Part shown: positions 7,290 through 21,395 of the stretch, in pieces
How the letters are laid out: each line of letters starts with the position of its first letter
How positions within the stretch are numbered: position 1 is the stretch's first letter
The notes under the pieces: model-generated
Databases searched by the model: none
What the model saw: the letters and a program-made list of their open reading frames with translations, nothing else
Told to the model about the DNA's origin: nothing
Program-made: the position numbers and the translations under genes
NCBI RefSeq assembly: GCF_003667545.1
Contig: NZ_RCUV01000024.1
Span: forward strand, 1 to 33,027
Source: Mycetocola manganoxydans
GTDB lineage: Bacteria; Actinomycetota; Actinomycetes; Actinomycetales; Microbacteriaceae
Length of the DNA stretch: 33,027 nucleotides
Direction: 5' to 3'

Positions 7290-8957
<1,668 letters not shown>

Positions 8958-9012
8958 GGGATGAGTCCTTTGGGAGGTGCCAGGCCGCTCGTGAGAGGCC
9001 GGGCGGGAATGG

Positions 9013-10329
9013 TTAGTGGAACTGGTCTTCTTCGGTCGACCCAACGAGCGCGAGGGTGGCGCTCCCGGGGTTCAGGGCCGTTGCGATGCGGTCGAAGTAG
9101 CCGGTGCCCACTTCGCGCTGGTGCCTGGTCGCGGTGTAACCGTCTGCCTCTGAGGCGAACTCCGCTTCCTGCAGTTCGACGTATGCGCTCATGGCGCGGT
9201 TCTTGTAGTCCTGGGCGAGCGTGAACATCGAGTGGTTCAGCGCGTGGAAGCCGGCCAGCGTGATGAACTGGAAGGCGTAGCCCATGGCAGCGAGTTCTTT
9301 CTGGAAGGTCGCGATCTGCGCGTCGTCGAGGTGGGATTTCCAGTTGAACGACGGCGAGCAGTTGTAGGCGAGTTTCTTGCCGGGGAAGTCCTGGTGGATG
9401 CGCTCGGCGAAGCGGCGAGCGAGTTCGAGGTCCGGCTCGGCCGACTCCACCCAGAGCAGGTCGGCGTACTCGGCGTAGGCGAGTCCGCGCGAGATGACCG
9501 TGTCGATGCCGTTCGTGACCTCGTAGAAACCTTCGGGGGTGCGGGTGCCGGTCAGGAACGGGCGGTCGCGCTCGTCGACGTCGCTCGTGATGAGGGTCGC
9601 CGCGAGGGCGTCGGTGCGGGCGATGATGATGCTCGGCACGCCGGCGACGTCGGCTGCCAGTCGGGCAGCGTTGAGGGTGCGGATGTGCTGGCTCGTCGGG
9701 ATGAGGACCTTGCCGCCCATGTGGCCGCACTTCTTCTCGCTCGCGAGCTGGTCCTCCCAGTGGACACCTGCTGCGCCGGCCTGAATCATCGACGACATGA
9801 GTTCGTAGGCGTTGAGTGGTCCGCCGAAGCCGGCCTCGGCGTCTGCGACGATCGGCGCCATCCAGTCGATTCCAGAAGCGGCGGTCGAGCCTGTCGAGAC
9901 CTCGGCGAATTCGATCTGATCAGCGCGGAGAAGCGCGTTGTTGATCCGGCGCACCACGGCGGGGACGGAGTTCGCGGGGTAGAGCGACTGGTCCGGGTAG
10001 GTCTGGCCGGAGAGGTTCGCGTCTGCTGCCACCTGCCAGCCGGAGAGGTAGATCGCCTTGAGGCCGGCGCGCACCTGCTGCACGGCCTGGTTTCCGGTGA
10101 GGGCACCCAGTGCCGGCACCCATTCCTCGGAGTGGATGAGGTTCCACAGGTTCTCGGCACCACGGCGGGCGATGGTCGCGTCTTCGCGAACACTTCCGCG
10201 GAGAGCGACGACCTCGGCGGCCGTGTAGTCACGGCGAACGCCTTCCCAGCGGGGGTCGGCATCCCACTCGAGCTGCAGTTCTTCTGCGGTCTGGGTCATG
10301 TCGCCTGGGCGAATGTTGTCGGTGCTCAT
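9013..10329 (-). CDS. aceA: Isocitrate lyase
   Basis: Isocitrate lyase splits isocitrate into succinate and glyoxylate, letting the cell grow on acetate, fatty acids or other C2 sources. The 438-residue protein has the signature [13 protein letters not shown] with the catalytic cysteine C201, the Mg-binding region [12 protein letters not shown] (159-170), and the typical IIIARTDA, with a C-terminal [14 protein letters not shown]. The length matches actinobacterial Icl1-type enzymes. The ATG at 10327-10329 follows GAAGGAG. The promoter must lie in the 194-bp gap shared with the ramB-like gene, which carries a clear dyad (10466-10487). Confidence 0.96.
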
Positions 10330-10465
10330 CGTCGTGCTCCTTCGGTGCGGTGGTCAGTAGTGCGGTGGTCGGTGGGCTGAGCGTCGGGCCGAACTCGACC
10401 CGGGCCTGTCGAAGCCGTGAACCGAGTCTGCGCGCCGCACAACTCCCTCGAACCGGATTGGTCTG

Positions 10466-10487
10466 CAGAAAAAGCCTCGTTTTTCTG
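10466..10487. promoter_or_regulatory. Dyad symmetry in the aceA/ramB divergent region
   Basis: CAGAAAAA (10466-10473) and TTTTTCTG (10480-10487) form a perfect 8-bp inverted repeat around a six-base spacer, in a locally AT-rich patch of an otherwise GC-rich gap. It is 37 bp ahead of the regulator start and about 140 bp ahead of aceA. By position it is a good operator candidate for the RamB-like protein or another acetate-responsive regulator. It does not closely match the Corynebacterium RamB site as I know it. Confidence 0.5.
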
Positions 10488-10523
10488 TTTGGTGAAAAGA
10501 GGGCCGAATGGCACGATGGCACC

Positions 10524-12008
10524 ATGACCAGCACCGCAGCTGACAGCCGAATTCTTGCGAAGCCCGACTTGGACGAGGGCGCCGTTGACGCGCTGACGCT
10601 GGGCCGTCGCATCCGTCAATTACGGATCTCGCGCGGGATGACGCTCGAACAGCTCGGTGCTGCCATCGACCGTGCGCCGTCGCAGGTCTCGACGATCGAA
10701 AACGGAAAGCGCGAGCCTCGGCTGTCGATGCTCCGCCAGATCGCCACCGCGCTCGCCACAACAACCGACGATCTTCTGCGCGACGAGGCGCCATCCGCCC
10801 GAGCCGCTCTCGAGATCGCCGTTGAGCGCGCCCAGCGCGGTCCCGTCTTCTCGGCGCTCGGCATCGTTCCGGTCCGAGTCTCCAAAGCGCACAGCGATGA
10901 CACGCTGCGCGCCATCCTGACCCTGCACCAGGAGGTCGAACGGCTGCACCGCGAGCGGGCGGCGACGCCCGAGGAGGCGCGGAGGGCGAACGCGTCACTG
11001 CGGGCGACGATGCGTGCACGTGACAACTACTTCCCCGAGCTCGAAGAGCAGGCGAAGAAGCTCCTCACCGCGGTCGGCCACACCGGCGGCCCGGTATCGC
11101 AGCAGCTCGTCGGAGACATGGCCAACCACCTCGGTTTCACCCTGCACTACGTGAGCGACCTGCCTCACTCGACCCGGTCGGTGACCGACTCGAGGAACGG
11201 GCGCATCTACCTGCCCACCCAGCAATCCGCCTCCCGGGACTCCCGCTCGCCGGTGGTCCAGGCGTTCGCGAGCCACGTGCTCGGGCATTCCGAGCCGACG
11301 AGCTACGCCGATTTCCTCCGGCAACGCGTCGAGACCAACTACCTCACCGCCGCGATCCTGCTGCCGGAGGCCGACGCAGTGCGATTCCTGACCGAGGCCA
11401 AGAACTTCCGCCGCATCTCGCTCGAGGATCTCCGCGACGCCTTCGCCGTGTCGTACGAAACAGCGGCGCACCGGTTCACGAACCTCGCCACGGCGCGACT
11501 CGGCATCCCGGTGCACTTCACCAAGGTGCACGAGTCGGGCACGATCGTGAAGGCGTACTCCAATGACGGGGTCAAGCACCCGACGGATGCCCTCGGTGCT
11601 GTCGAGGGGACGACCGTCTGCCGCAAGTGGACAGCGTTCACCGTCTTCGCCGCCGAAGACCGGTTCAGCCCGTGGTACCAGTACACCGACAACCCCAACG
11701 GCACCTACTGGTGCACGTCACGGATCGAGAAGGCAAAGGAGGGCGACTACTCGATCACGGTGGGTGTGCCGTTCGAGCACGTGAAGTGGTTCCGCGGCCG
11801 GGAAACCACGAACCGGTCCCGGTCGACCTGCCCCGACGACAGCTGTTGCAGGAACGCGCCGAGTGAGCTCGCCGACAAGTGGGCCCACTCATCCTGGCCC
11901 GCCGCACGTACACCGACGAGTCTGCTCGCGGCCCTCCCGACCGGGACGTTCCCCGGTGTGGATGAGGTCGAGGTGTACTCGTTCCTCGAGGCACACGAGC
12001 CGCGCTGA
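10524..12008 (+). CDS. ramB: RamB-like XRE-family regulator of acetate/glyoxylate metabolism
   Basis: This 494-residue cytoplasmic regulator has an XRE-type helix-turn-helix at about residues 27-85 (RRIRQLRISRGMTLEQLG, then SQVSTIENGKREP). An IrrE/ImmA-like central segment follows (about 190-350), then a C-terminal short-chain fatty acyl regulator domain (DUF2083 type) with a cysteine cluster CPDDSCC near residue 436. This architecture and size are those of RamB, which controls aceA and aceB in Corynebacterium and Mycobacterium, and the gene is divergent from aceA here. The ATG at 10524 gives MTSTAADSRI; codons upstream are not family-like. The effector and the sign of regulation in this organism are inferred, not seen. 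Confidence 0.85.
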   Translation: MTSTAADSRILAKPDLDEGAVDALTLGRRIRQLRISRGMTLEQLGAAIDRAPSQVSTIENGKREPRLSMLRQIATALATTTDDLLRDEAPSARAALEIAVERAQRGPVFSALGIVPVRVSKAHSDDTLRAILTLHQEVERLHRERAATPEEARRANASLRATMRARDNYFPELEEQAKKLLTAVGHTGGPVSQQLVGDMANHLGFTLHYVSDLPHSTRSVTDSRNGRIYLPTQQSASRDSRSPVVQAFASHVLGHSEPTSYADFLRQRVETNYLTAAILLPEADAVRFLTEAKNFRRISLEDLRDAFAVSYETAAHRFTNLATARLGIPVHFTKVHESGTIVKAYSNDGVKHPTDALGAVEGTTVCRKWTAFTVFAAEDRFSPWYQYTDNPNGTYWCTSRIEKAKEGDYSITVGVPFEHVKWFRGRETTNRSRSTCPDDSCCRNAPSELADKWAHSSWPAARTPTSLLAALPTGTFPGVDEVEVYSFLEAHEPR

Positions 12009-12108: not shown

Positions 12109-13038
12109 ATGACGACAAACCTGAATCCGACTCCCGTTGTCACTGTTCTCGGTCTCGGTGCGATGGGCTTGCCCATGGCCACGAGGCTCGCCAGCGCGCT
12201 GACCGTTCGCGGCTACGACTTCGCCGCGAACCGGCTCGACCTGGCCGCGGACGCCGGCGTCATCCGTTGTTCCTCCGCGCGAGAGGCGGCAACCGGTGCC
12301 GACATCGTCCTCGTCGCCGTTCGGAACGGGGAGCAACTCGACGCAGCGCTCTTCGGTGAAGACGGCGTCGCCGATGTTCTCACGCCCGGCAGCGTCGTGC
12401 TTCTCACGAGCACGATCGGGACGGATGCCATCCAGGCGACGGTCGAGCGGCTCGCCTCCCACGGCATCGACCTCGTCGACGCCCCGTTGTCCGGCGGCCC
12501 CGTGCGGGCGGGGGAGGGTGACCTTCTGATCGTCGTCGGCGCCAAACCGGAGGCGCTGGAGCGCGCTCGACCGGTGCTCGACCTGCTCGCGTCGACGCTC
12601 ACCATCGTCGGCGACAAGCCGGGCGACGGTCAGGCGATGAAAACCGTCAACCAGCTGCTGTGCGGCGTGCACATCGCGGCGGCAGCAGAGGCTCTCGCGC
12701 TCGCCGAAGCCCTTGGCCTCGATCCCGCCGCGGCGCTGGCCGCCCTCGAAGCGGGAGCAGCCGGATCCTTCATGCTGTCGAACCGCGGCCCCCGCATGCT
12801 CGAGGCGTACGACGAGGGCGGCGCCGAGGTGCTCAGCCGACTCGACATCTTCGTGAAGGACATGGGCATCGTCGGAACCGCGACGCGTGCGGCGGCGTTG
12901 CCATCGCCGGTTGCTGCTGCGGCGGAGCAGCTCTTTCTGCTCGGCCAGGCACAGGGGCTCGGGGAAGCAGACGACTCCGCGGTTATCCGCGTCATTGCCC
13001 CGCGGGTCGCGAAGCCAATCGGCTCTTCCCAAGCCTGA
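12109..13038 (+). CDS. NAD(P)-dependent beta-hydroxyacid dehydrogenase (3-hydroxyisobutyrate/L-threonate dehydrogenase family)
   Basis: This 309-residue protein is a beta-hydroxyacid dehydrogenase. It has the N-terminal Rossmann motif VLGLGAMGLPMATRL (13-27), the substrate-binding APLSGGPVRAGEGDL (125-139) and the catalytic lysine K178 in AMKTVNQLL, with an all-helical C-terminal half. The family includes 3-hydroxyisobutyrate, tartronate semialdehyde and L-threonate/D-erythronate (LtnD-type) dehydrogenases. Next to C4 sugar genes, a tetronate or other short aldonate is a reasonable substrate, but this is inference. The gene lies upstream of the operator at 13043, so it is probably transcribed separately from the kinase operon. 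GGAG precedes the ATG by about eight bases. Confidence 0.82.
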   Translation: MTTNLNPTPVVTVLGLGAMGLPMATRLASALTVRGYDFAANRLDLAADAGVIRCSSAREAATGADIVLVAVRNGEQLDAALFGEDGVADVLTPGSVVLLTSTIGTDAIQATVERLASHGIDLVDAPLSGGPVRAGEGDLLIVVGAKPEALERARPVLDLLASTLTIVGDKPGDGQAMKTVNQLLCGVHIAAAAEALALAEALGLDPAAALAALEAGAAGSFMLSNRGPRMLEAYDEGGAEVLSRLDIFVKDMGIVGTATRAAALPSPVAAAAEQLFLLGQAQGLGEADDSAVIRVIAPRVAKPIGSSQA

Positions 13039-13042
13039 AAAT

Positions 13043-13054
13043 ATCCTATAGGAT
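13043..13054. promoter_or_regulatory. Palindromic operator ATCCTATAGGAT ahead of the erythrulose kinase operon
   Basis: A perfect 12-bp palindrome lies 56 bp before the kinase start and four bases after the preceding gene. Its right half contains TAGGAT (13049-13054), which fits an actinobacterial -10 box, so a bound protein would block RNA polymerase. The same core, TCCTATAGGA, recurs ahead of the opposing operon at 21326-21335. The likely ligand is the GntR/FCD regulator encoded at 16168. Confidence 0.75.
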
Positions 13055-13110
13055 TGTCCTGACCACCGACGATCGGTCGATGACCGCAGCTCAACGGCGA
13101 GGAAGAAAAG

Positions 13111-14850
13111 ATGACCAGGCTCTGGAACGAACCCGAAAACTTTGCAGACGAAATGATCGACGGATTCGTCCGTGCGAACGGCCGGTGGGTCAGGAAGGTG
13201 TCGGGTGGCGTCACGCGGTCGACCCGTTCCGAGGAGCCGACGGTGTCGCTCGTCATCGGCGGCGGCTCCGGCCACTACCCCGCGTTCGGCGGCCTCGTCG
13301 GTCACGGCCTGGCACACGGTGCTGCGATGGGAAACCTCTTCGCGTCCCCATCGGCCCAGCAGGTCGAATCCGTCGCCCGCGCCAGCGACCAGGGCCGCGG
13401 CATCCTTCTGAGCTATGGCAAGTACGCCGGTGACGTTCTCCACTTCACCGAGGCGCAGGACAAGCTCCGCGCTGATGGCATCGACTGCCGCACCGTCACA
13501 GTGACGGACGATATCTTCAGCGCACCGGCCGACGAGAAGGACCGCCGGCGCGGTATCGCCGGGGACCTTACCGTCTTCAAGGTCGCCGGAGCCGCTGCAG
13601 CTGCCGGCTACGACCTTGACGGAGTCGAACGCGCCGCCATCCTCGCCAACGACCGCACCCGCACCATGGGTGTCGCGTTCACCGGCTGCACCCTCCCCGG
13701 CGCGGACGAGCCGCTCTTCAGCGTGCCAGAGGGCCGGATGGCCATCGGCCTCGGCATTCACGGCGAACCGGGTATCGACGAGGTCGACATCCCGACCGCA
13801 GACGGCCTCGGTGAGATGTTCGTCGAGCGACTGCTCGCCGACGCAGAGATCCCGGACGGGGTCTCCGTACAGGGCGCTCGCGTCGTCCCGATCCTCAACG
13901 GCCTCGGCTCCGTCAAGAACGAAGAGATGTACATCGTCTTCGCACGAATCGCGACCCTCCTCGAAGACGCAGGTATCGAGCTCGTCGACCCTCAGGTCGG
14001 AGAATTCTGCACGAGCTTCGACATGGCCGGCGTCTCTCTCACCCTGCTCTGGCTGGACGACGAGCTGGAGTCGCTATGGAGTGCTCCCGCCGACACTCCC
14101 GCGTTCCGCACCGGCTCCGTGGACTCCACCTCGCTCGTCGAGCGTGACGAGATCGACGACTCGATCGCCGATGAGGTCATCCCGGACGCGAGCGACGACT
14201 CGCGTCGTGCCGCCACCACGATCGTCAAGGCGCTGGATGCCGTCAAGGCCGTCATCGACGAGAACGCCGACGAGCTCGGCCGCATCGACGCGATCGCCGG
14301 AGACGGTGACCACGGAATCGGCATGAAGCGCGGGTCGCACGCGGCCGTCGACGCGGCGCACGTGTCGCTCGACAAGGGTGCAGGCGCGCAGAGCGTTCTC
14401 GCCTCCGCAGCAGACGCGTGGTCCAACAAGGGCGGTGGAACCTCCGGAGCGATCTGGGGCGTCATCCTCCGCACCGTCGGTGAGCACCTGGGCAACACGG
14501 ACGCCGTCGAATCTGCGCGTGTTGCCGACGGACTCGGTTCTGCCCGCCAGGCCGTCATGGACTTCGGCAAGGCGAAGGTCGGCGACAAGACCATGGTCGA
14601 CTCGCTCGCGCCGTTCGCCGATACCCTCACCGAGCGCGTCGCCGCCGGAGACACCCTCATCGACGCGTGGGCCGCTGCAAGTACCGCGGCGAAGAATGCC
14701 GCGGACGCCACCGCCGACATGATGCCGGGGATGGGTCGCGCCCGCTCGCACGGCGAGAAGTCCCTCGGTGTCGCCGACCCCGGCGCCGTCTCCCTCGCGA
14801 TGATCGCCGCAGCCGTCCTCGACGTGTTGCGCGCGGCATCCGATCACTGA
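13111..14850 (+). CDS. lerK: Dihydroxyacetone-kinase-family sugar kinase, probable L-erythrulose 1-kinase
   Basis: This 579-residue protein fuses a DhaK-like domain (about 1-330) with a DhaL-like domain (about 365-575), as in ATP-dependent dihydroxyacetone kinases. DhaK shows GGGSGHYPAFGGLVGHG (51-67) and the histidine H217 in GLGIHGEPG that binds the ketose covalently. DhaL has the Mg-ATP motif AGDGDHGIGMKRG with D398, D400 and H401. In actinobacterial tetritol pathways this family phosphorylates L- or D-erythrulose. The two isomerase genes directly downstream, one TIM-like and one RpiB-like, fit L-erythrulose. Dihydroxyacetone itself remains possible. The gene heads a four-gene operon controlled by the 13043 palindrome. 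Confidence 0.85.
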   Translation: MTRLWNEPENFADEMIDGFVRANGRWVRKVSGGVTRSTRSEEPTVSLVIGGGSGHYPAFGGLVGHGLAHGAAMGNLFASPSAQQVESVARASDQGRGILLSYGKYAGDVLHFTEAQDKLRADGIDCRTVTVTDDIFSAPADEKDRRRGIAGDLTVFKVAGAAAAAGYDLDGVERAAILANDRTRTMGVAFTGCTLPGADEPLFSVPEGRMAIGLGIHGEPGIDEVDIPTADGLGEMFVERLLADAEIPDGVSVQGARVVPILNGLGSVKNEEMYIVFARIATLLEDAGIELVDPQVGEFCTSFDMAGVSLTLLWLDDELESLWSAPADTPAFRTGSVDSTSLVERDEIDDSIADEVIPDASDDSRRAATTIVKALDAVKAVIDENADELGRIDAIAGDGDHGIGMKRGSHAAVDAAHVSLDKGAGAQSVLASAADAWSNKGGGTSGAIWGVILRTVGEHLGNTDAVESARVADGLGSARQAVMDFGKAKVGDKTMVDSLAPFADTLTERVAAGDTLIDAWAAASTAAKNAADATADMMPGMGRARSHGEKSLGVADPGAVSLAMIAAAVLDVLRAASDH

Positions 14851-14883
14851 TTGTCACTTCACGAGAAAAAAAGGAGCAACACC

Positions 14884-15342
14884 ATGAGCGCACTACGTAT
14901 TGTCGTCGGCTCGGATGACGCCGGATTCGACTACAAGGAAGTTCTGAAGGCGGACCTCGAGGGCAACGACCTCGTCGCGTCGGTCACCGACGTCGGTGTC
15001 GATGCCGATGGCGGAACCAACTACCCGACGATCGCCATCGCGGCAGCCGAGATGATCGCGCGGGGCGAGGCAGACCGTGCCCTTCTCGTCTGTGGCACCG
15101 GCCTCGGCGTCGCCATTGCGGCGAACAAGGTCGCCGGCGTCCGCGCCGTCACCGCGCACGACTCCTACTCGGTTGAGCGGGCCGTTCTGTCCAACGACGC
15201 CCAGGTCCTGACCATGGGCCAGCGTGTGGTCGGTCTCGAACTCGCCCGCCGCCTCGCACGCGAGTGGCTCACCTACACCTTTGACGAGTCGAGCGCATCG
15301 AACGACAAGGTGCAGGAGATCCGCAGCTACGAAGGAGTCTGA
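14884..15342 (+). CDS. derI: RpiB/LacAB-family isomerase, probable D-erythrulose-4-phosphate isomerase
   Basis: This 152-residue enzyme belongs to the RpiB/LacA/LacB family of sugar-phosphate isomerases. The active-site cysteine C70 lies in [14 protein letters not shown], and [19 protein letters not shown] follows as in RpiB. The N-terminal SDHAG of ribose-5-phosphate isomerases reads SDDAG here (D12 in place of His), which suggests a substrate other than ribose-5-phosphate. In the erythrulose pathway this family converts D-erythrulose-4-phosphate to D-erythrose-4-phosphate, which enters the pentose phosphate pathway. AAGGAGC precedes the ATG. Its stop overlaps the next gene by one base. Confidence 0.85.
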
Positions 15343-16175
15343 TGTCCGTCTCTGGCTCACCCCGGTTCCTCATCGGGGTGAGCCACAAGATGTACTTCTC
15401 CCACGCGAAGACCGTCGACTGGTGCCGGAAGGTCGCGGCGATCGCCGGAGAACACCCGGCGCTCGCAGACGGCGCGGCCGAACTCTTCGTCATCCCGAGC
15501 TACCTCTCGATCCCAGCGGCGCTCGACGCATTCGGCCCGCTCGCTCTCGTCGGTGCCCAGGACCTGAGCACCGAGGACTCCGGCGCGTACACCGGTGAAG
15601 TGAGCGGCGCTGAGATCGCCGAACTCGGTTGTCGCGTCGTCGAAGTCGGTCATGCCGAGCGTCGTCGTCTCTTCGGTGAGACCGAGACGATCGTCGCCGC
15701 CAAAACGGATGCCGCGCTGCGCAACGGGCTCGACCCCGTGCTCTGCATCGGTGAGACCGTTCGCACAACGACGGACGCAGCCATCGGCGATTGCATCGCC
15801 CAGGTCAACTCGGCGCTCGATGCGAGCCGCCAGGCCGGGCACAGTGGTCGCGTGATCGTCGCCTACGAACCCCACTGGGCGATCGGCGCTCCCGAACCCG
15901 CCTCGCCGGACTACATCCGTGAGGTGTGCGGGGCGTTGCGGGAGCACGTCCGCTCCCTGACAGACTTCCCGGACTCCGCCGTCATCTACGGCGGCAGTGC
16001 CGGACCCGGGCTGCTCAGCGTCATCGCCGACAGCGTGGACGGAATCTTCCTCGGGCGATTCGCCCACGACCCGGACGCTCTCCGCGCCATCCTCGACGAA
16101 GCGGCCGAGGCGGCGAACAGCTCCGCAAGCGCTGGTACCCTCGGAACCGACGCCCCGAGGAGATCGAATGCCTGA
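15342..16175 (+). CDS. lerI: Triosephosphate-isomerase-like protein, probable L-erythrulose-1-phosphate isomerase
   Basis: This 277-residue protein has the full set of triosephosphate isomerase active-site residues: K16 in VSHKMYF, H104 in VEVGHAERRRLFGE, E176 in VAYEPHWAIG and the phosphate loop YGGSAGPG near 219-226. It is not the housekeeping enzyme: the usual GNWKMN is VSHKMY, the protein is about 25 residues longer, and it is coupled to sugar kinase genes. In erythritol/threitol pathways the TIM paralogue EryH/LerI converts L-erythrulose-1-phosphate to D-erythrulose-4-phosphate, exactly the step needed between the kinase and the RpiB-like enzyme. It overlaps the preceding gene by one base (TGATG). 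Confidence 0.86.
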   Translation: MSVSGSPRFLIGVSHKMYFSHAKTVDWCRKVAAIAGEHPALADGAAELFVIPSYLSIPAALDAFGPLALVGAQDLSTEDSGAYTGEVSGAEIAELGCRVVEVGHAERRRLFGETETIVAAKTDAALRNGLDPVLCIGETVRTTTDAAIGDCIAQVNSALDASRQAGHSGRVIVAYEPHWAIGAPEPASPDYIREVCGALREHVRSLTDFPDSAVIYGGSAGPGLLSVIADSVDGIFLGRFAHDPDALRAILDEAAEAANSSASAGTLGTDAPRRSNA

Positions 16176-16887
16176 ACCCACCTACCCGCTCGGGAAGACG
16201 GTGGTGATCGAACGCAAGGGCCTTCGAGACCGCGTGTACGACCTCGTGCTCGACATGCTCGTCGGCCAGGCCGTCGCTCCTGGCACCCGGTTGTCCATCG
16301 ACGCGATCGCCCGTGACCTCAAGGTGTCACCGACGCCGGTGCGTGAAGCGCTCGTCCAACTCGAGCGAACGGGACTCGTCACGCGCGAGCCCCTCAAGGG
16401 CTACCGCGTCGCGCCGCAGATCACCGACGGGCAGCTCGAGTCACTCTTCGACACCCGCATCGTCCTCGAGGGCGGTGCAGCATCGCTCGCAGCCCGCCAC
16501 GCCGACTCGCTCGTGCCCCGGCTCGAAGCGACCCTCGAGGAACACCGCGCGGTGACGGAGAAGGTGCAGGAAGCAGCACGGGCGGGCACGCTCTCGGTCG
16601 CACTGCTCCGGGAGTATTTCACGGTCGACTGGAACTTCCACCACCTCATCTTCGAGGGAACGGACAACCCGTTCCTCATCGACATGTCCGAGGTCATCTC
16701 GACGAGGGTCCACCGCATGCGGCAGACGGTCCTCAGCGGTGTCACAGACGCCGGGGATGCCGTCACCGAGCACACGCGCATCATCGATGCCTTCCGGACC
16801 GGAGACCCCGAAGCGGCCGCGGCAGCGATGCGCGACCACATCGAGAAGGTTCGCTCACGCTCGCGTTCGGACGCCCACGCGCACTGA
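16168..16887 (+). CDS. GntR-family (FadR/FCD) transcriptional regulator
   Basis: This 239-residue regulator has an N-terminal winged helix (about 15-82; ARDLKVSPTPVREALVQLE, then GLVTREPLKGYRV) and a C-terminal FCD ligand domain (about 90-230) with the metal-binding WNFHHLIFEGTDN and the final HTRIIDAFRTGD helix pair. FCD proteins usually bind a small carboxylate or sugar acid and repress palindromic sites until it appears. The ATG at 16168 lies eight bases inside the preceding gene and follows GAGGAG, so it is the last gene of the kinase operon. It is the only dedicated regulator among the catabolic genes, so it is the natural ligand of the two TCCTATAGGA sites. Confidence 0.9.
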   Translation: MPEPTYPLGKTVVIERKGLRDRVYDLVLDMLVGQAVAPGTRLSIDAIARDLKVSPTPVREALVQLERTGLVTREPLKGYRVAPQITDGQLESLFDTRIVLEGGAASLAARHADSLVPRLEATLEEHRAVTEKVQEAARAGTLSVALLREYFTVDWNFHHLIFEGTDNPFLIDMSEVISTRVHRMRQTVLSGVTDAGDAVTEHTRIIDAFRTGDPEAAAAAMRDHIEKVRSRSRSDAHAH

Positions 16888-16946
16888 CGAACAATCTCGG
16901 TGTCGATCCCGGACGACGCCCGCGGCATCCGTTCGAGTGAACAACG

Positions 16947-16984
16947 AAAACCGGGCCGGCTCCCGTAGGAGCCGGCCCGGTTTT
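16947..16984. terminator. Bidirectional terminator between the two convergent operons
   Basis: A perfect 17-bp stem runs from 16947 to 16963 and from 16968 to 16984, with a CGTA loop. The left arm starts AAAACCGGG and the right arm ends CCCGGTTTT, so each strand ends in a short T-tract. It is 60 bp past the regulator stop and 14 bp past the MFS stop and serves both operons. Confidence 0.92.
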
Positions 16985-16997
16985 GTCGTGCGTCCGG

Positions 16998-18368
16998 TCA
17001 GTGGACCGGTGGAGCCTCTTCGAGCAGAGCGTCTGCGCGGGCCTTGAAGAACCGCGTGCAGTACAGCATCGCTGCGGCGAGGAACGCGAACACGCCGAGG
17101 GACACGATGCCCCAGACGCCACTGTCGGTCGGGTTCGTCTCGTTGATGCTCGTGCGCATGATCGGGGCGACGAAGCCACCGAGGTTACCCAGCGAGTTGA
17201 TGAGACCGATACCTGCGGCAGCTGCCGTTCCGGTGAGGAACGCGGTCGGGTACGACCAGGTGATCGGACCAACCGAGAGGAAGCTGGCGACGGCGATCGT
17301 GATGAACACGATGCCGACAAACGGCAGGTTGTTTGCGCCGGCCCAGGCGGAACCCAGGATGGCGAGACCGGTGAGGATGTAGAACAGCGTGCCCCAGTTG
17401 CGGCGACGGATGATGGTCGAGGCGTGCTTTCCGAAGAAGTAGCACGCGAAGAGGCCGACGAGCCACGGAATGGCGGAAACAAGTCCGACCTGCCAGCCAA
17501 CGTCCTGTCCGATCAGGCCGGCGACCTGCTGCGGGAGGTAGAACGTGGTGCCGTAGACGGCGATCTGGAGGCAGAAGTAGATGATGGTGAAGTACCACAC
17601 CTTCCAGCTCGACATCGCGCGCCAGATACCGGTGGGTCCGTCTTCCGTTCGGACAGCGTCTTCCCTGGCCATCACCTCCGTGAGGGCGTCCTTCTCTTCC
17701 TGGTTGAGGAACTTCGCCTTTTGCGGACTGTTCACAAGGAGGAAGAGCGCTGCGATACCGGCTATCACCGCCAACATGCCTTCGACGAAGAACATGACCT
17801 GCCAACCGTGCCACGGCGTCAGGGTGTCACCGAAGCTGATCAGGCCGCCGCTGAGCGGGGCGCCGAGCATCTGCGAGAACGGCTGTGCCAGATAGAAGAT
17901 CGCGAACATCTGCACGCGGACCTTGTTGGGGAACCACTCCGCGAGGAACATGATGACACCGGGGAACAGTCCGGCCTCGGTGACACCGAGGAGGAACCGC
18001 AGGATGATGAACATCGTGTCGTTCGTGGTGAAGGCGAACGCCGCGGCGACGATTCCCCACGTGATGGCGATCCGCGCAAGCCAGAACCTGGCGCCGAATT
18101 TCTTCAGGAGCAGGTTGCTGGGGATCTCGAAGATCGCGTAACCGATGAAGAAGATACCTGCGCCGAGCGCGAATGCGCCCTGCGAGATACCACGATCCAT
18201 CGACAGCGCCTCTTCGGCGAAACCGATGTTCGTGCGGTCCAGGAAGGCGACGAAGTACAGAATGACGAGCATCGGCATGAGGTGCCGTGCTGCCTTCGAA
18301 ATCGCCGACTTGAGGGCCGGGCTGTGGGCATTGAGATCAATGCCACCAGCGGGAATTGGTGCGGACAA
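16998..18368 (-). CDS. MFS permease of the anion:cation symporter (ACS) family
   Basis: This 456-residue membrane protein has the twelve hydrophobic segments of an MFS transporter. Family marks of the ACS group (tartrate, galactonate, glucarate and hexuronate carriers) are visible: VAFLDRTNIGFA near 40-51, IGYAIFEIPSNLLLKKFGAR near 76-95 and TEAGLFPGVIMFLAEWFP near 129-146. Such carriers move organic anions with protons, pointing to a sugar acid as pathway substrate. The start is a TTG at 18366-18368 with a strong AAAGGAGAG upstream; the next ATG would cut into the first membrane segment. It is the last gene of the minus-strand operon. Confidence 0.88.
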   Translation of the reverse strand: MSAPIPAGGIDLNAHSPALKSAISKAARHLMPMLVILYFVAFLDRTNIGFAEEALSMDRGISQGAFALGAGIFFIGYAIFEIPSNLLLKKFGARFWLARIAITWGIVAAAFAFTTNDTMFIILRFLLGVTEAGLFPGVIMFLAEWFPNKVRVQMFAIFYLAQPFSQMLGAPLSGGLISFGDTLTPWHGWQVMFFVEGMLAVIAGIAALFLLVNSPQKAKFLNQEEKDALTEVMAREDAVRTEDGPTGIWRAMSSWKVWYFTIIYFCLQIAVYGTTFYLPQQVAGLIGQDVGWQVGLVSAIPWLVGLFACYFFGKHASTIIRRRNWGTLFYILTGLAILGSAWAGANNLPFVGIVFITIAVASFLSVGPITWSYPTAFLTGTAAAAGIGLINSLGNLGGFVAPIMRTSINETNPTDSGVWGIVSLGVFAFLAAAMLYCTRFFKARADALLEEAPPVH

Positions 18369-18446
18369 CTGCGCTCTCCTTTGAGTTCTGAGAAGAATTG
18401 GTCGGATACCTTCCGCGGGACTCGCGGAAGGCGGGGAGGATGTGGA

Positions 18447-18557
18447 TCAGCCGAGGACGCTCGGGGCCAGCAGCCAGATCCCGACGCCGACGAGAATGAT
18501 CCCGGCGACGAGGAAGAGGATGCGTCCCTTGGACCAGGGACCTGTTGCTCCGGTCAT
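18447..18557 (-). CDS. 36-residue single-pass membrane peptide
   Basis: A short reading frame begins with ATG at 18555-18557 and stops with TGA at 18447-18449. It encodes a peptide with a polar start (MTGATGPWSKGR) and one hydrophobic helix, residues 13-32 (ILFLVAGIILVGVGIWLLAP). It starts ten bases after the SDR stop, with GAGG in the SDR stop region as ribosome-binding site, and lies 78 bp ahead of the MFS gene on the same strand. Codon use is GC3-rich like the neighbours. I do not recognise the family. Its position suggests a small partner or stabiliser of the MFS permease. The positive residues before the helix favour an N-in orientation. Confidence 0.7.
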   Translation of the reverse strand: MTGATGPWSKGRILFLVAGIILVGVGIWLLAPSVLG

Positions 18558-18567
18558 GGTCGGCGCC

Positions 18568-19338
18568 TCAGTGCATGTAGAGGCCGCCGTCAACGTTCAG
18601 GGTCTGGCCCGTCACGAATCCGGAGTCCTCGCTGATGAGGTAGGCGATGGCAGCCGCGATGTCGCGGGGCGTTCCGATGCGGGGAAGAACGCCGTCGGCC
18701 GCCATGGCTTCCTTGCGCTCGTCGGTCAGGGTGCCGCCCATGATGTCTGTGTCGATCGGGCCGGGGGAGATGACGTTGACGGTGATGCCGTCCTTGCCGA
18801 GCTCGCGAGCGACACTGCGGGAGAAGCCGATGACGCCGGCCTTGGCCGCCGAGTACACCGTCTTGCTGAAGGTGCCGCCGCCGCGCTGGGCCGAGACGGA
18901 GGAGAGGTTGACGACACGGCCAACACCGTTCTTCACCATCGACTCAACGGCGCGACGGGTGGCGAAGTGCACACCGTTCATGTTGATGCCCATGACGCGG
19001 TTCCACTCGTCGGCGGTGACCTCGAGGTACGGCACCGGCGAGGAGACACCGGCGAGGTTGACGAGGGCGACGACCTGGGGGAGCGCCGCTTCGAGCTTGT
19101 CGAATGCCGCACGGACCTGTGCGTCATCGGCGACGTTTGCGCCGGCACCCGCGGCGCGGACACCGTGCTGCTCGGCGATTTCGGCGGCGACCTTCTCAGC
19201 GGCATCCGCGTCGAGGTCGATGATTCCGATGTTCCAGCCCTGCTCCGCGAGGTAGTGGGCTGAAGCACGGCCGATGCCCCGCGGCGACGCTGCGCCGGTG
19301 AGGATGACCGTGCGGGATTCGGGGAACGCTGATGTCAT
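18568..19338 (-). CDS. Short-chain dehydrogenase/reductase
   Basis: This 256-residue classical SDR shows the cofactor motif TGAASPRGIG (14-23), the NLAG motif (94-97), the catalytic serine in NLSSVSA (144-150) and the YSAAK pair Y162/K166, and ends with the common TGQTLNVDGG. The acidic residue after beta-2 (IIDLD) favours NAD. Members oxidise sugar alcohols, sugars or hydroxyacids. Here it could oxidise the entry substrate (a sugar, lactol or tetritol), but the sequence does not tell which. The ATG at 19336-19338 has AAAGGA on its strand and leaves a 16-bp gap to the preceding gene, so it is part of the minus operon. Confidence 0.9.
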   Translation of the reverse strand: MTSAFPESRTVILTGAASPRGIGRASAHYLAEQGWNIGIIDLDADAAEKVAAEIAEQHGVRAAGAGANVADDAQVRAAFDKLEAALPQVVALVNLAGVSSPVPYLEVTADEWNRVMGINMNGVHFATRRAVESMVKNGVGRVVNLSSVSAQRGGGTFSKTVYSAAKAGVIGFSRSVARELGKDGITVNVISPGPIDTDIMGGTLTDERKEAMAADGVLPRIGTPRDIAAAIAYLISEDSGFVTGQTLNVDGGLYMH

Positions 19339-19354
19339 TTGTCGAATCCTTTTG

Positions 19355-20317
19355 TCAGTTCGAGGGGTGGATGGGGGCTGGGCCGAGCTCATCCATGAGC
19401 TTCTTGATGGCCACGTACGCCTTGTTGCGGTAGGCGATCAGTTCCGCCGTGCGCTCGGACGGGACATCGAGGTACCCGGCGCCGGTCTTGGTGCCGAACT
19501 TGCCGGCGTCGACGAGTTCCTTGAGCGAGTCCGGGGTCGCGAAACGCTCAGGCCAGCGGGTCTGCAGGGAGGCGTAGCAGAACGAGTACACGTCGAGCCC
19601 GGCCATGTCCGCGATCGCGAAGGGTCCGAAGACCGGCAGGCGGAAGCCGAAGGTGGTGCGAACGATGGTGTCGATGTCCTCGGGGGTTGCGACGCCCTCT
19701 TCGACGAGCTGGGTCGCCTCGTGGAACAGCGCGTACTGGAGACGGTTGAGCACGAAGCCCGTCGCATCCTTGACCCTGGCGGTCTCCTTGCCGGTCGCCG
19801 CGACGATCTCCTCGACGAGTTCGATCGCCTTCGCGTCGGTTCCTTCGTGCGGGATCAGCTCGACACCCGGAATGAAGGGAGCCGGGTTGGAGAAGTGGAC
19901 ACCGAGGAAGCGTTCCGGGTTGACGACGGCTTCCGCGAGTGAGCTGATGAGGATCGTCGAGGTGTTCGAGCCGATGATGGCATCCGGGCGTGCTGCTTCG
20001 CTGATGCGCTTCAGCGTTGCGTGCTTGATCTCGATCTTTTCCGGCACCGCCTCTTCGATGAAGTCGGCGTCTGCGACAGCCTCCTCGATCGATGCGGACG
20101 GCGAGACGTTCGCCTGGATGCGCTCGACGGCATCCGCGGGGAAGAGGTCGTCAGCGACGAACTGGCGGGCCTCCTCGATCAGGCGCTCGTAGTTGCTCTT
20201 GGCGATCTCTTCGGAGATGTCGGCGAGGCGGACGGTTGCGCCAGACAGTGCGAGCACCTGGGCGATTCCCCCGCCCATGTATCCGGAGCCGACGATGGCA
20301 ATGATGCGGTTGGTCAT
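19355..20317 (-). CDS. 3-hydroxyacyl-CoA-dehydrogenase-family protein, possible aldonate 3-dehydrogenase
   Basis: This 320-residue protein has an N-terminal Rossmann domain (IVGSGYMGGGIAQVLALSG, 9-27) and a C-terminal helical domain. Family motifs SNTSTILISS, GVHFSNPAPFIPGVELI and FVLNRLQYALFHEA are visible. The size equals that of L-gulonate 3-dehydrogenase (lambda-crystallin) and carnitine dehydrogenase, which oxidise beta-hydroxy acids without CoA. In a sugar-acid operon, oxidation of C3 of an aldonate to a 3-keto acid is the attractive reading. No thiolase or acyl-CoA gene is nearby, which argues against a role in beta-oxidation. It begins nine bases after the TIM-barrel gene. Confidence 0.85.
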   Translation of the reverse strand: MTNRIIAIVGSGYMGGGIAQVLALSGATVRLADISEEIAKSNYERLIEEARQFVADDLFPADAVERIQANVSPSASIEEAVADADFIEEAVPEKIEIKHATLKRISEAARPDAIIGSNTSTILISSLAEAVVNPERFLGVHFSNPAPFIPGVELIPHEGTDAKAIELVEEIVAATGKETARVKDATGFVLNRLQYALFHEATQLVEEGVATPEDIDTIVRTTFGFRLPVFGPFAIADMAGLDVYSFCYASLQTRWPERFATPDSLKELVDAGKFGTKTGAGYLDVPSERTAELIAYRNKAYVAIKKLMDELGPAPIHPSN

Positions 20318-20326
20318 GATGTTCTC

Positions 20327-21265
20327 CTATGCCTTGGGAAGAAGTGAGCGGATGTACTTCTGGTTGGTGGCGCACATGCCGAGGCTGTCTCCGCCGTAGT
20401 GCTCCGCGAGGATGATGCCGTTGTAGCCGAGTGCGATCGCGTCGCGGAACACCTGCCGGTAGTTGATGAGGCCGGCTTCCATCGTTGAGGGAACCGAGGT
20501 GTACCAGCTGCCGTCTGCAGCCTCGTCACGGGTGTAGTTCTTGACGTGCCAGTAGTTGGCGTACGGAAGGGTCTTCGCGAACAGCTCGCGCCAGTCTTCG
20601 ACCGGGCGGTGCAGGCGGATGAGGTTGGCGACGTCGGGGTTGATGCCCACGTTGTCGAGTCCGACATCTTCGACGAAGCGCACGGCGGAATCGGCGGTAC
20701 CGACGTAGGTGTCCTCGTACATCTCGAGCGACAGCGGGAGACCCACGGATGCCGCGTGCTCACCCAGTTCGCGGATGCGCTTGACGGCGGTGTCCCACAC
20801 GTCGCGGTCGTCGGGGTCCTTGGGGCCCTCGGCGGTCCAGAACCAGAGGGCCTTCTTCTGCGCATCGCTGAACGGCTGGTGGAGTCCGGTGGAGAAGACC
20901 TCCATGCCCCATTCTGCTGCTGCGTCGATGGTGCGGTGCGCGTAGGCGAGGTTCTTTTCCTCGTGCCCCGGCATGATCACGCTCTGGCGCTGGAGGTGCA
21001 CGGACGGGATACCGACACCGTGCGACTTGGCGATCGAGAGGAACTCGTCACGACGGGAGGGCTCGAGGTCGGCCGGACGCACGTGGCTGTCGGCGAGTTC
21101 CGCGAGGTTGAATCCCACGTCAGCAACCTGGGCGAACATGTCGTCCCAGACCTCGGCCGGGGCGTCGTGCATGGCCAGACCCTGCTTGTCGACCGGTGCG
21201 AATGCGTGGAGACAGGTGGCGATGGGCCAGGTCTCGGCTGTGTACGTTGGCTTCTCAGACGGCAT
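20327..21265 (-). CDS. Xylose-isomerase-like TIM-barrel protein (sugar isomerase/epimerase or decarboxylase)
   Basis: This 312-residue protein belongs to the AP-endonuclease-2/xylose-isomerase-like TIM-barrel family. Likely metal ligands are all present: E181 in SLEMYEDTY, D211 in GINPDV, H240 in YWHVKN and E288 in ILAEHY. The family contains ketose epimerases, hydroxypyruvate- and tetronate-type isomerases, and 3-oxo-isoapionate decarboxylase, which releases L-erythrulose. With a kinase for L-erythrulose in the partner operon and a beta-hydroxyacid dehydrogenase just downstream, a 3-keto-acid decarboxylase role is plausible, although an isomerase is equally compatible with the fold. It is the first gene of the minus operon; GGAGCAACC precedes the ATG. 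Confidence 0.85.
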   Translation of the reverse strand: MPSEKPTYTAETWPIATCLHAFAPVDKQGLAMHDAPAEVWDDMFAQVADVGFNLAELADSHVRPADLEPSRRDEFLSIAKSHGVGIPSVHLQRQSVIMPGHEEKNLAYAHRTIDAAAEWGMEVFSTGLHQPFSDAQKKALWFWTAEGPKDPDDRDVWDTAVKRIRELGEHAASVGLPLSLEMYEDTYVGTADSAVRFVEDVGLDNVGINPDVANLIRLHRPVEDWRELFAKTLPYANYWHVKNYTRDEAADGSWYTSVPSTMEAGLINYRQVFRDAIALGYNGIILAEHYGGDSLGMCATNQKYIRSLLPKA

Positions 21266-21324
21266 GGTTGCTCCATTGCAGTTGGGGTTCGAGGGGATGC
21301 CGCAATCACTCGCGGCTAGAAAAG

Positions 21325-21336
21325 ATCCTATAGGAA
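21325..21336. promoter_or_regulatory. Second TCCTATAGGA operator ahead of the minus-strand operon
   Basis: ATCCTATAGGAA holds the same perfect 10-bp core (21326-21335) as the operator at 13043. It lies 60 bp before the first gene of the minus operon. Read on the minus strand it again contains TAGGAT, a candidate -10 box. By eye these are the only two copies of this core in the window. Confidence 0.75.
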
Positions 21337-21395
21337 ACAGTACTCCCGGTCCCTCGAACTGTAAAGACCCCCGTTTTTCGAGCGGATGCCGCGGG

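Follow-up and report, generated by a model that had tools for sequence, protein, structure and literature searches.

Two operons that run towards each other in the genome of Mycetocola manganoxydans raise the question of what the cell degrades with them and whether one regulator governs both. From the window (the whole stretch of DNA analysed, 33,027 nucleotides) and its relatives, it is probable that both gene sets together serve growth on a sugar acid by way of a four-carbon sugar phosphate. The explanation as a whole, in which a local regulon serves the use of a sugar acid (a C5 aldonate being the best candidate), is considered moderately probable.

Organization of the locus

The ORF check of the window bore out the gene order and strands of the preliminary description, in which a plus operon converges with a minus operon. 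The plus operon encodes a fused dihydroxyacetone-kinase-family kinase (kin, 13111–14850, Dak1 and Dak2), likely an erythrulose kinase according to family models and a kin tree; an RpiB/LacAB-family isomerase (rpiB, 14884–15342), likely a D-erythrulose-4-phosphate isomerase (family models and tree); a divergent triosephosphate-isomerase-family protein (tim, 15342–16175), likely an erythrulose-phosphate isomerase (family models, comparison with the host TIM, and tree); and a FCD-type GntR regulator (gntR, 16168–16887), assigned by domain models and a regulator alignment. The minus operon begins with a xylose-isomerase-like TIM barrel related to 5TNV (xyl, 20327–21265), a candidate 3-oxo-acid decarboxylase or isomerase/epimerase, followed by a 3-hydroxyacyl-CoA-dehydrogenase-family protein (hcdh, 19355–20317), likely a sugar-acid 3-dehydrogenase from family models and structure-database matches, a short-chain dehydrogenase (sdr, 18568–19338, family models), a single-span membrane peptide of 36 residues that is conserved before the carrier (pep, 18447–18557) and a MFS carrier (mfs, 16998–18368) whose top NCBIfam model is a D-galactonate transporter, at a score below its cut-off. 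A L-threonate-dehydrogenase-like gene (12109–13038, plus strand, the start codon at 12109 being our choice) lies directly upstream of the plus operon and is associated with the locus; it reaches 250.7 bits on NF043037 (cut-off 350).

The two operons share one bidirectional terminator, as had been proposed: repeat search and RNA folding place between them a 17-bp perfect inverted repeat (16947–16984) whose arms (16947–16963 and 16968–16984) are 100% complementary around a 4-nt loop, with RNA fold z-scores of -6.6 and -8.5 on the two strands. This repeat was not among the listings of a consensus-based terminator scan of the window.

A motif search located the putative operator, the 10-bp palindrome TCCTATAGGA, at 13044–13053 before the plus operon and at 21326–21335 before the minus operon. 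The copies end 57 bp ahead of the kinase ATG (13111) and 60 bp ahead of the TIM-barrel ATG (21265) respectively, in agreement with the claim of a common core shortly before the first start codon of each operon. These are the two matches in the window, with no further site even allowing one mismatch, and shuffled windows gave a mean of 0.13 matches and reached two in 1 of 100 shuffles. The home genome (3,060,410 bases) holds exactly two exact copies, both at this locus, where 0.12 (order-1 model built on the window) or 0.86 (plain base-composition model) would be expected; the backwards control has 0 copies in the whole 3,060,410-base genome. TAGGAT, earlier put forward as a -10 box in both copies, is present in each, reading with transcription. 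Its proposed promoter role fits the plus operon, TTCCCA-17-TAGGAT (13026–13054, plus strand) being the top-scoring promoter-like pair around the palindrome, with the putative -10 box mostly within it. For the minus operon this role is not supported, since TTTACA (21360–21365)-17-TACTGT (21337–21342), a promoter-like pair just upstream (21337–21365, minus strand), outscores TAGGAT and abuts the palindrome, ending one base short of it.

Linkage of the palindrome to the regulator

Across related genomes the palindrome tracks this gntR gene. It occurs within 6 kb of the GntR gene in 23 of the 25 sampled family genomes with a close regulator, and 40 of the 42 copies found in these 25 genomes lie within that distance of the regulator gene; the backwards control has 6 copies in them. 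The 80 named loci, a set collected via xyl, contain 123 palindrome copies and 0 control copies. With at most one mismatch, the site precedes 23 of 32 kin genes and 29 of 34 xyl genes, and the nine site-less kin genes are internal to a gene run, judged by gene order. Genome G141 lacks the exact site and has a xyl site with one mismatch. The proposal of one operator before both operons, tied to this regulator, is supported in the sampled family genomes and the named loci. Neither a palindrome spread without link to these genes nor its loss ahead of operons that keep the regulator was seen in close orthologues; the more distant G072 and G135 keep the regulator (48–50% identical) and xyl without the palindrome.

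Alternatively, the palindrome might be the site of another factor, have a structural role or be there by chance. It is no commoner than its control outside the 25 close-regulator genomes (38 versus 46 copies in the remaining 174 sampled genomes), and 24 copies come from the 162 sampled genomes in which GntR has no match at E 1e-40. However, 13 of 16 stretches around such copies (from 14 of those 162 genomes) do contain a relative of GntR, which in 9 of them lies within 2.5 kb, and G149, of the same genus, lacks the regulator, xyl, hcdh and palindrome all together; with the linkage in 23 of 25 genomes and the 80 named loci, this makes such a reading highly improbable. In other genomes the palindrome also lies near related FCD regulators at L-fucose-type genes, and no GntR match was found in the stretch read around the palindromes at L066, L067, L069, L084, L086, L087 and L094–L097.

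The proposed joint control of both operons via one switch is well supported by these comparisons. The convergent layout, to which the preliminary description had attributed it, is not supported as its cause: among 70 loci kin and xyl are convergent in 23 and share a strand in 47, so convergence is unnecessary for joint control.

The GntR regulator

The regulator combines a winged helix (PF00392, 1.1e-14) with a FCD domain (PF07729, 4.4e-27). FCD domains have the metal-ligand pattern D-x3-H...H...H, with which this protein agrees; its metal-ligand-like D154, H158, H202 and H224 are invariant in 12 aligned regulators. The recognition helix reads S-[P/Q/H]-TP in 19 of the 22 regulators having a site within 1 kb, with Arg at that position in 0 of 22, while three site-less rhizobial regulators read SRTPLREA. 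Aligned by eye, the missing Arg corresponds to FadR Arg-45, which the part of PMC4494728 available to us gives as a specific Arg-G contact. The same part gives TKGT/ACMA as the common FadR/FCD operator boxes and also names FadR-type exceptions (Suvorova et al., 2015). TCCTATAGGA does not fit that consensus, and FCD membership stands despite the mismatch because of the exceptions named there. The conservation of operator and regulator provides a ready test set for what a FCD recognition helix reads without the usual Arg.

In the proposed regulation, considered very probable from the sequence, the FCD-type product of gntR, the last gene of the plus operon, would bind TCCTATAGGA at each operon start, over the putative -10 box or right beside it, and would keep RNA polymerase off. 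A carboxylate inducer would free the protein from its operator, and uptake, oxidation and the phosphorylated lower pathway would come on together; GntR would also limit its own synthesis.

The lower module and the upper operon

The kin protein and its RpiB-like and TIM-like partners look like a tetrulose-phosphate module; the erythrulose kinase and the RpiB-type and TIM-type isomerases of the C4 polyol pathway are present at family level only. In the kin tree, the window kinase and the plasmid-cluster kinases L098–L100 fall in one 27-row group (100/99), away from the host DhaK, itself a long branch. RpiB fails the D-erythrulose-4-phosphate isomerase model NF051858 (143.6 bits, cut-off 240), a model with a short name indicative of rhizobia. 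RpiB does pass the ribose-5-phosphate isomerase model TIGR02133; its tree is weak. In the tim tree, where the outgroups are long branches, the TIMs of the rhizobial erythritol-like locus L101 and of L058 group with the second TIM of the host and not with that of the window. The home genome has further TIM, RpiB-like and DhaK/DhaL-type genes.

In relatives, the upper operon varies between galactonate-type MFS, GntP or tricarboxylate-type carriers, and between hydroxyacyl-CoA-type or PdxA-type dehydrogenases. When four carrier types were sought, MFS, GntP or TctA was found in 28 of the 29 loci with a carrier (14 of the 43 loci had none) and, among the 80 named loci, in 62 of 62 (18 had none). 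Within the genus, xyl-hcdh-sdr-mfs follows the palindrome site in G174, and the same site in G049 is followed by xyl, PdxA and TctCBA-like genes (by eye; PdxA was confirmed by search, and hcdh was not found at E 1e-60). Locus L142 carries both modules, each with its own site, over a single xyl and a single kin-rpiB-tim. Same-genus G086 has no xyl at the locus, keeps the site before hcdh and holds a 45% xyl relative elsewhere. In G003 (L036) kin, rpiB and tim were not found within the 19 kb fetched, and G197 has an ABC carrier, a kin site with one mismatch in the absence of the exact site, and no hcdh at E 1e-60. The xyl protein weakly resembles ketose 3-epimerase models, and the model searches made gave no fitting family model for the xyl family or the carrier-linked peptide of 30–38 residues. 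The xyl relative 5TNV was deposited as 'AP endonuclease, family protein 2'.

The substrate and its alternatives

The preliminary description spoke of a C4-sugar system. The lower module is indeed of the tetrulose-phosphate kind, but the substrate is better read as a sugar acid, probably C5, converted to a C4 ketose, because the carriers and dehydrogenases of the upper operon and of its replacements point that way. A sugar acid is quite likely, and the conversion of a C5 acid to erythrulose has about an even chance. The MFS carrier would import the acid; hcdh, with or without sdr, would oxidise its 3-hydroxyl to give a 3-oxo acid; xyl would help to decarboxylate or rearrange the latter to erythrulose; kin would phosphorylate erythrulose; and tim and rpiB would isomerise the phosphate to D-erythrose 4-phosphate. 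The gene set has the look of an additional route from sugar acids to erythrose 4-phosphate.

A C4 acid would follow another route: oxidation and isomerisation would convert threonate or erythronate to a 3-oxo acid, and loss of CO2 would then yield dihydroxyacetone, with kin a plain dihydroxyacetone kinase feeding triose phosphate. This would suit the L-threonate-dehydrogenase-like gene adjoining the plus operon, the recurrence of such genes in 18 of the 80 named loci, DUF1537 kinase genes in 16 and 6 of the 80 (two protein clusters that may share loci), threonate-type or DUF1537 genes inside the same gene run in several loci, and rhizobial clusters with PdxA, xyl and kin and no rpiB or tim in the 20 kb fetched. 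It would leave rpiB and tim idle, yet they are present in 34 and 29 of 43 xyl loci, and the genome holds other DhaK/DhaL-type genes and a second TIM to which tim is only 35% identical; a C4 acid is considered unlikely. A polyol or free tetrose (erythritol, threitol or erythrulose, closer to the earlier title), with sdr oxidising the polyol, is quite improbable. Relatives of kin-rpiB-tim do occur in an Arthrobacter cluster beside alcohol dehydrogenases and a ribose-type ABC carrier, a kinase relative lies in the G272 locus that looks polyol-like by eye, and the ABC carrier of G197 accompanies these genes. Against this, carboxylate-type carriers prevail as counted above, acids are the substrates of PdxA and of some relatives of hcdh (L-gulonate and carnitine dehydrogenases), sdr occurs in no more than 21 of the 43 and 59 of the 80 loci, and the operon has a galactonate-type MFS with hcdh and sdr, with no polyol dehydrogenase or polyol carrier recognised.

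D-apionate is a further candidate, a dehydrogenase giving 3-oxo-isoapionate and xyl decarboxylating it to L-erythrulose. One route for D-apionate employs a decarboxylase of the xylose isomerase family and leads to L-erythrulose and then to the same lower module; D-apionate degradation was reportedly described by Carter and colleagues in 2018. A Pantoea cluster of kin, tim, rpiB, an AP_endonuc_2 protein (P0010) and a PGDH_C/KARI-like protein (P0011), the PGDH_C protein presumably being the D-apionate oxidoisomerase, fits this route. Names for the enzymes of D-apionate degradation appear in the available parts of PMC11747546 and PMC6302742. Both xyl and P0010 are AP_endonuc_2 proteins with LE-x-YE and EH-[WY] in common by eye (with Gln in place of the H in some xyl relatives), but they have no clear similarity (BLASTP E 0.18, hhalign probability 14.8). 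PGDH_C (PF16896) is absent from the nine proteins of the window and, at the required identity of at least 35% to the Pantoea protein, from the 43 xyl loci; hcdh and PdxA occupy the dehydrogenase place, and hcdh has no detectable relation to P0011 beyond a short nucleotide-binding stretch. D-apionate is on these grounds a doubtful substrate.

Returning to the C5 aldonate, a broader reading is offered tentatively, with somewhat less than even confidence: an undescribed modular sugar-acid pathway of actinobacteria and rhizobial relatives with unrelated entry dehydrogenases. One entry would comprise the 3-hydroxyacyl-CoA-type dehydrogenase, MFS carrier and small membrane peptide, and the other a PdxA-type dehydrogenase with a tricarboxylate-type carrier. 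Both would supply one xylose-isomerase-like enzyme, which would convert a C5 3-oxo acid to erythrulose, under a FCD branch that would read TCCTATAGGA because its recognition-helix Arg became Pro, Gln or His.

Comparison with known systems

Matches of hcdh include 3f3s and 3ado, which we take to be L-gulonate 3-dehydrogenase (lambda-crystallin) of the 3-hydroxyacyl-CoA dehydrogenase family. The likeness lies in the family and the proposed 3-oxidation of an aldonate, whereas the proposed hcdh substrate is one carbon shorter and hcdh is closer in sequence to the acyl-CoA dehydrogenases of the family. L-threonate, D-threonate and D-erythronate are catabolised by LtnD, OtnK/DtnK, PdxA2 and OtnI. 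The present system shares with them the L-threonate-dehydrogenase-like and DUF1537 neighbors, the PdxA variants and the sugar-acid logic; it differs in its dihydroxyacetone-kinase-type kin, in having rpiB and tim, and in that no DUF1537 (OtnK-type) kinase, though present in relatives, is found in the window at E 1e-12. D-apionate degradation likewise leads from a sugar acid through a 3-oxo acid to erythrulose or its phosphate; its lower module is the same, and one route has a partner of the xylose isomerase family. Here hcdh or PdxA replaces the PGDH_C oxidoisomerase, and xyl is not clearly similar to the Pantoea candidate.

The C4 polyol pathway of Mycolicibacterium smegmatis, reportedly described by Huang and colleagues in 2015, uses a kinase and RpiB-family and TIM-family enzymes, as does the lower module here. 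It takes D-threitol, L-threitol and erythritol through erythrulose phosphates to D-erythrose 4-phosphate, according to the available part of PMC12780249, which is the outcome proposed for this locus. In contrast, no polyol dehydrogenase or ABC polyol carrier was recognised here, where an acid-type carrier, a 3-hydroxyacyl-CoA-type dehydrogenase, a xylose-isomerase-like protein and FCD GntR control are found. Finally, compared with the FadR/FCD subfamily as presented in the available part of PMC4494728, the regulator shares the winged helix and FCD domain, a palindromic operator and a link to acid catabolism, and differs in a TCCT..AGGA operator in place of TKGT/ACMA boxes and in the Pro, Gln or His that replaces the recognition-helix Arg.

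Operator, promoters and terminator of the two operons

The preliminary description had placed one palindromic operator ahead of two convergent operons, and the ten-base palindrome TCCTATAGGA is indeed found ahead of both: at 13044-13053, ending 57 bp ahead of the first start codon of the plus operon, and at 21326-21335, ending 60 bp ahead of that of the minus operon, with no further copy in the window even when one mismatch is allowed. The plus operon consists of kin (13111-14850), which encodes a fused Dak1-Dak2 protein, rpiB (14884-15342), tim (15342-16175) and gntR (16168-16887), the gene of an FCD-type GntR regulator. The minus operon comprises xyl (21265-20327; xylose-isomerase-like TIM barrel), hcdh (20317-19355; 3-hydroxyacyl-CoA-dehydrogenase family), sdr (19338-18568), a gene for a 36-residue peptide (18557-18447) and the carrier gene mfs (18368-16998). 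The terminator said to be shared by the two operons is borne out by an inverted repeat at 16947-16984 with 17-bp perfect arms, a 4-base loop and A4/T4 ends, which gives a stable fold on both strands; a consensus promoter/terminator scan of the window did not list it and returned one promoter versus 0.7 expected. An L-threonate-dehydrogenase-like gene on the plus strand (12109-13038; 250.7 bits versus a model cut-off of 350) has its 3' end 5 bases short of the plus operator. Directly upstream of the system, the stretch 7290-12008 carries isocitrate lyase and malate synthase families (glyoxylate shunt) and an ORF with a Cro/C1-type HTH.

The site was followed in 43 loci chosen for regulator, palindrome or xyl, whose rates are not population rates; in these, as in the 80 named loci described below, the search covered the listed query families, and many gene names in relatives come from translations read by eye. 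A site with at most one mismatch precedes 23 of 32 kin and 29 of 34 xyl genes. When 52 sites were aligned on transcription, the ten core positions carried 1.6-2.0 bits each and the flanks at most 1.3 bits, the core conservation being partly a matter of choice because the sites were picked for no more than one core mismatch. Promoter-like pairs include TTCCCA-17-TAGGAT (window kin), GTGACA-17-TAGGAT (kin of L061 and L062), TTGCGC-16-TACTAT and TTGCGC-16-TATATT (xyl of L039 and L046) and TTGACA-17 with a -10 extending into the palindrome (L053, L059, L071, L072). Given this variety, the palindrome appears to overlap or touch the -10 region in varying register, and the regulator, if seated on it, would repress by blocking polymerase. 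TAGGAT had been proposed as the -10 box of both promoters; it fits the window kin and is not supported for the window xyl, whose pair is TTTACA-17-TACTGT. As a universal -10 it was set aside: a T follows the palindrome in 19 of 23 kin sites and in 21 of 29 xyl sites.

Linkage of the palindrome to the regulator

The home genome (3,060,410 bases in 32 contigs, 99.99% complete) holds two exact copies of the palindrome and none of the backwards control (the same letters reversed), with 0.12 copies expected under a first-order model built on the window letters and 0.86 under plain composition. A GntR match at E <= 1e-40 was obtained in 37 of 199 sampled family genomes; 25 genomes have a close regulator (E <= 1e-65), and the palindrome is present in 53. 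It lies at most 6 kb from the close regulator in 23 of the 25 genomes (distances leave out G089), and 17 of them have at least two copies; 40 of the 42 copies in these genomes are within 6 kb of the regulator. At the looser threshold of E <= 1e-40 it is within 6 kb in 28 of 37 genomes. Presence anywhere in the genome gives 23 of 25 versus 30 of the 174 others (Fisher p 1.7e-13, uncorrected for kinship). Over all 199 genomes the count of 80 copies versus 52 of the control is unstriking alone; it divides into 42 versus 6 in the close-regulator genomes and 38 versus 46 in the rest. Two close-regulator genomes, G141 and G197, lack an exact palindrome and have a one-mismatch site ahead of xyl and kin, respectively; in G072 and G135, which keep xyl and a 48-50% identical regulator, no site comes closer than two mismatches. 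Three of the four genomes of the window's genus have the regulator and two palindrome copies each; the fourth, G149, has neither, nor xyl (E 1e-20) or hcdh (E 1e-60). In a phylum-wide sample xyl was found in 4 of 396 genomes, home genome included.

A second sample was drawn from named genomes scanned with xyl alone, the best 80 of 291 relatives giving 80 loci, some from genomes also present in the family sample. These best 80 loci (1,575,509 bases) contain 123 exact palindromes and no backwards pattern, with at least one palindrome in 71 and at least two in 48. In the 250 bases upstream of xyl, 73 of the 80 loci have a site with no more than one mismatch, and the same is true upstream of kin in 50 of 70 (L159 not counted); many of the kin genes without an upstream site sit behind xyl within one gene run. 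The nearest relative among the listed named genomes is Okibacterium sp. HSC-33S16 (xyl 96% identical). Both samples thus agree with the earlier expectation that the palindrome follows the GntR gene in relatives. Convergence had also been offered as the reason for joint control, which is not supported: among these best 80 loci kin and xyl converge in 23 of 70 and share a strand in 47 of 70, and the same sites serve the one-strand clusters, which makes the convergent layout one among several forms of a single regulon. A shared operator with joint control of both operons, through predicted binding of the regulator, is very likely.

The lower module

The rpiB product passes TIGR02133, named ribose-5-phosphate isomerase, and scores lower than NF051858, a model for D-erythrulose-4-phosphate isomerase, requires. 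The tim product, with a score of 173, stays below the cut-off of 293 set for its best triosephosphate isomerase model; it shares 35% identity with the second TIM of the home genome, which has further DhaK/DhaL-type genes on contigs 2 and 25. An Arthrobacter plasmid carries relatives of kin-rpiB-tim clustered with two alcohol dehydrogenase genes and an ABC carrier of the ribose type. Further relatives sit in a Pantoea plasmid cluster (L099, 5000-11443) that combines kin, tim and rpiB with an AP_endonuc_2 TIM-barrel protein and with a PGDH_C protein also matching KARI_N; this cluster looks like a D-apionate route via L-erythrulose. Trees were built from matches covering at least 55% of the query with no internal stop. 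The window kin falls in a 27-row group (100/99) with the Arthrobacter and Pantoea plasmid kinases and the window tim in a 29-row group (99/97) with the plasmid-cluster TIMs, while the TIMs of L101 (a rhizobial erythritol-like locus) and L058 group with the host's second TIM; the outgroup branches are long, and resolution in the rpiB tree is weak. The three genes are best read as a tetrulose-phosphate module that would end in D-erythrose 4-phosphate. In one genome, G003, the fetched stretch contains none of the three.

The upper module and the small membrane peptide

The mfs product is closest to a D-galactonate model (259 bits versus a cut-off of 395). Four carrier types were sought: MFS, GntP or TctA occurs in 28 of the 29 carrier-bearing loci among the 43, the exception (L051) having an ABC permease alone, and in all 62 carrier-bearing loci of the best 80 of 291 named relatives. 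GntP carriers are found in L042, L045 and L058, and in L057 at 32% identity. In G049, where hcdh is absent at E 1e-60, PdxA and a tricarboxylate-type carrier replace hcdh-sdr-mfs behind the same site; G174, of the same genus as G049, keeps hcdh-sdr-mfs. G197 likewise lacks hcdh at E 1e-60, and carries an ABC transporter. The 43 xyl loci have hcdh in 29, PdxA in 12 and both in none, the remaining two having an L-threonate-dehydrogenase-like gene in one case and none of the three in the other. A strict exchange of hcdh and PdxA was rejected, since the named loci (best 80 of 291) have hcdh only in 70, PdxA only in 5, both in 2 (L142, L195) and neither in 3. Agrococcus L142 (5900-18500) has three palindromes, with the lower, hcdh and PdxA modules each behind its own copy and the hcdh and PdxA modules sharing one xyl and one kin-rpiB-tim set. 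Their joint presence in L142 and L195 makes the two look like alternative entry modules.

The xyl product has one close solved relative, 5TNV, and showed no clear relationship to the Pantoea decarboxylase candidate. E181, D211 and E288 are kept in 13 of 13 aligned sequences, and H240 is Gln in two. In same-genus G086 (L034, 12255-12509) xyl is missing between palindrome and hcdh, and a 45% relative lies elsewhere in the genome.

The peptide (18447-18557, minus strand) has 36 residues and a single membrane span, its relatives having 30-38 residues. ORFs of 25-70 residues that include a hydrophobic stretch were looked for ahead of related carrier genes (at least 60% identity), and the peptide was found ahead of 19 of 21 (absent in L052 and L070); in L035 it stays with the carrier, apart from the enzyme genes. 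In an alignment of 17 of the 19 (near-duplicates L038 and L046 left out; three longer readings, the window and L033 among them, entered from an inner Met) W, R, L, G and G are invariant. No NCBIfam or Pfam model scores above cut-off for the window peptide (P0006), and the best weak matches among the 17 (NCBIfam NF038396, 0.0038; Pfam DUF1206, 0.00098) were taken as chance membrane-span matches.

The substrate

The system had been described as acting on a C4 sugar. This fits the lower module, with its putative C4 sugar phosphates; the upper part, by its carriers and dehydrogenases, points to an acid substrate. Members of the PdxA family and of the family of L-gulonate 3-dehydrogenase produce 3-oxo acids. 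That two unrelated dehydrogenases of such families precede a single xyl suggests a 3-oxo acid, or that acid's product, as the substrate of xyl. An erythrulose product would mean a five-carbon acid, and the system is probably one for a C5 sugar acid feeding a C4 sugar-phosphate module. D-apionate was not adopted as the named substrate and is kept as a rival candidate. In loci of Sinomonas, Tersicoccus and Microbacterium the gene run itself takes in L-threonate-dehydrogenase-like genes and DUF1537 kinase genes (in this genus tally the unclassified Micrococcaceae locus L180 is labelled Arthrobacter by default). Together with the L-threonate-dehydrogenase-like neighbour in the window, these runs indicate that C4 acids may enter as well. 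Open-access paper searches on apionate and erythrulose phosphates led nowhere, and those with the palindrome letters gave no paper on bacterial gene regulation as judged from titles and abstract starts; the system is called undescribed in the sense of not found in the open-access literature searched.

The regulator branch compared with known FadR-type regulators

Palindrome neighbourhoods were also read in family genomes where no GntR match reaches E 1e-40, in 16 stretches from 14 of 21 such genomes. A GntR relative is present in 13 of them, within 2.5 kb in 9; L084, L086 and L087 have the palindrome and no GntR relative in the stretch read. By Pfam, the L-fucose-type cluster of L083 (4957-10884) has an alpha-L-fucosidase, an enolase-family dehydratase, an FAA hydrolase, an amidohydrolase and an FCD GntR around the palindrome. 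By eye, L075, L089, L091 and L092, from such genomes, also show it near FCD GntR genes in L-fucose-type clusters. Occurrences of this kind indicate that the palindrome belongs to a regulator branch and not to this pathway alone; within the home genome it is restricted to the two-operon system. In G034 and G109 a third palindrome (L078, 7858; L079, 7822) has a distant GntR relative (28% identity, SHIPVREAL) about 100 bases away and, by eye, a transporter-like gene nearby; it possibly marks a further regulon.

FCD ligands D154, H158, H202 and H224 are invariant in 12 of 12 aligned regulators, a pattern that would suit a carboxylate effector. A site lies within 1 kb of 22 GntR relatives (distance taken from the gene's lower coordinate). 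In 19 of these the recognition helix reads S-[P/Q/H]-TP; L078 and L079 have SHIP, and L082 gives no clear match. Not one of the 22 carries Arg at this place in the helix, and three rhizobial regulators from clusters without the site have SRTPLREA. According to Suvorova et al. (2015, PMC4494728), common FadR-subfamily operator boxes are TKGT/ACMA, and FadR Arg-45 makes a specific Arg-G contact. The Arg absent from the site-linked regulators aligns by eye with FadR Arg-45, and the box here, TCCT/AGGA, differs from the common boxes in having C in place of G. Rather than as proof, the missing helix Arg may be taken as pairing with the change from G to C in the box, a rule that can be tested.
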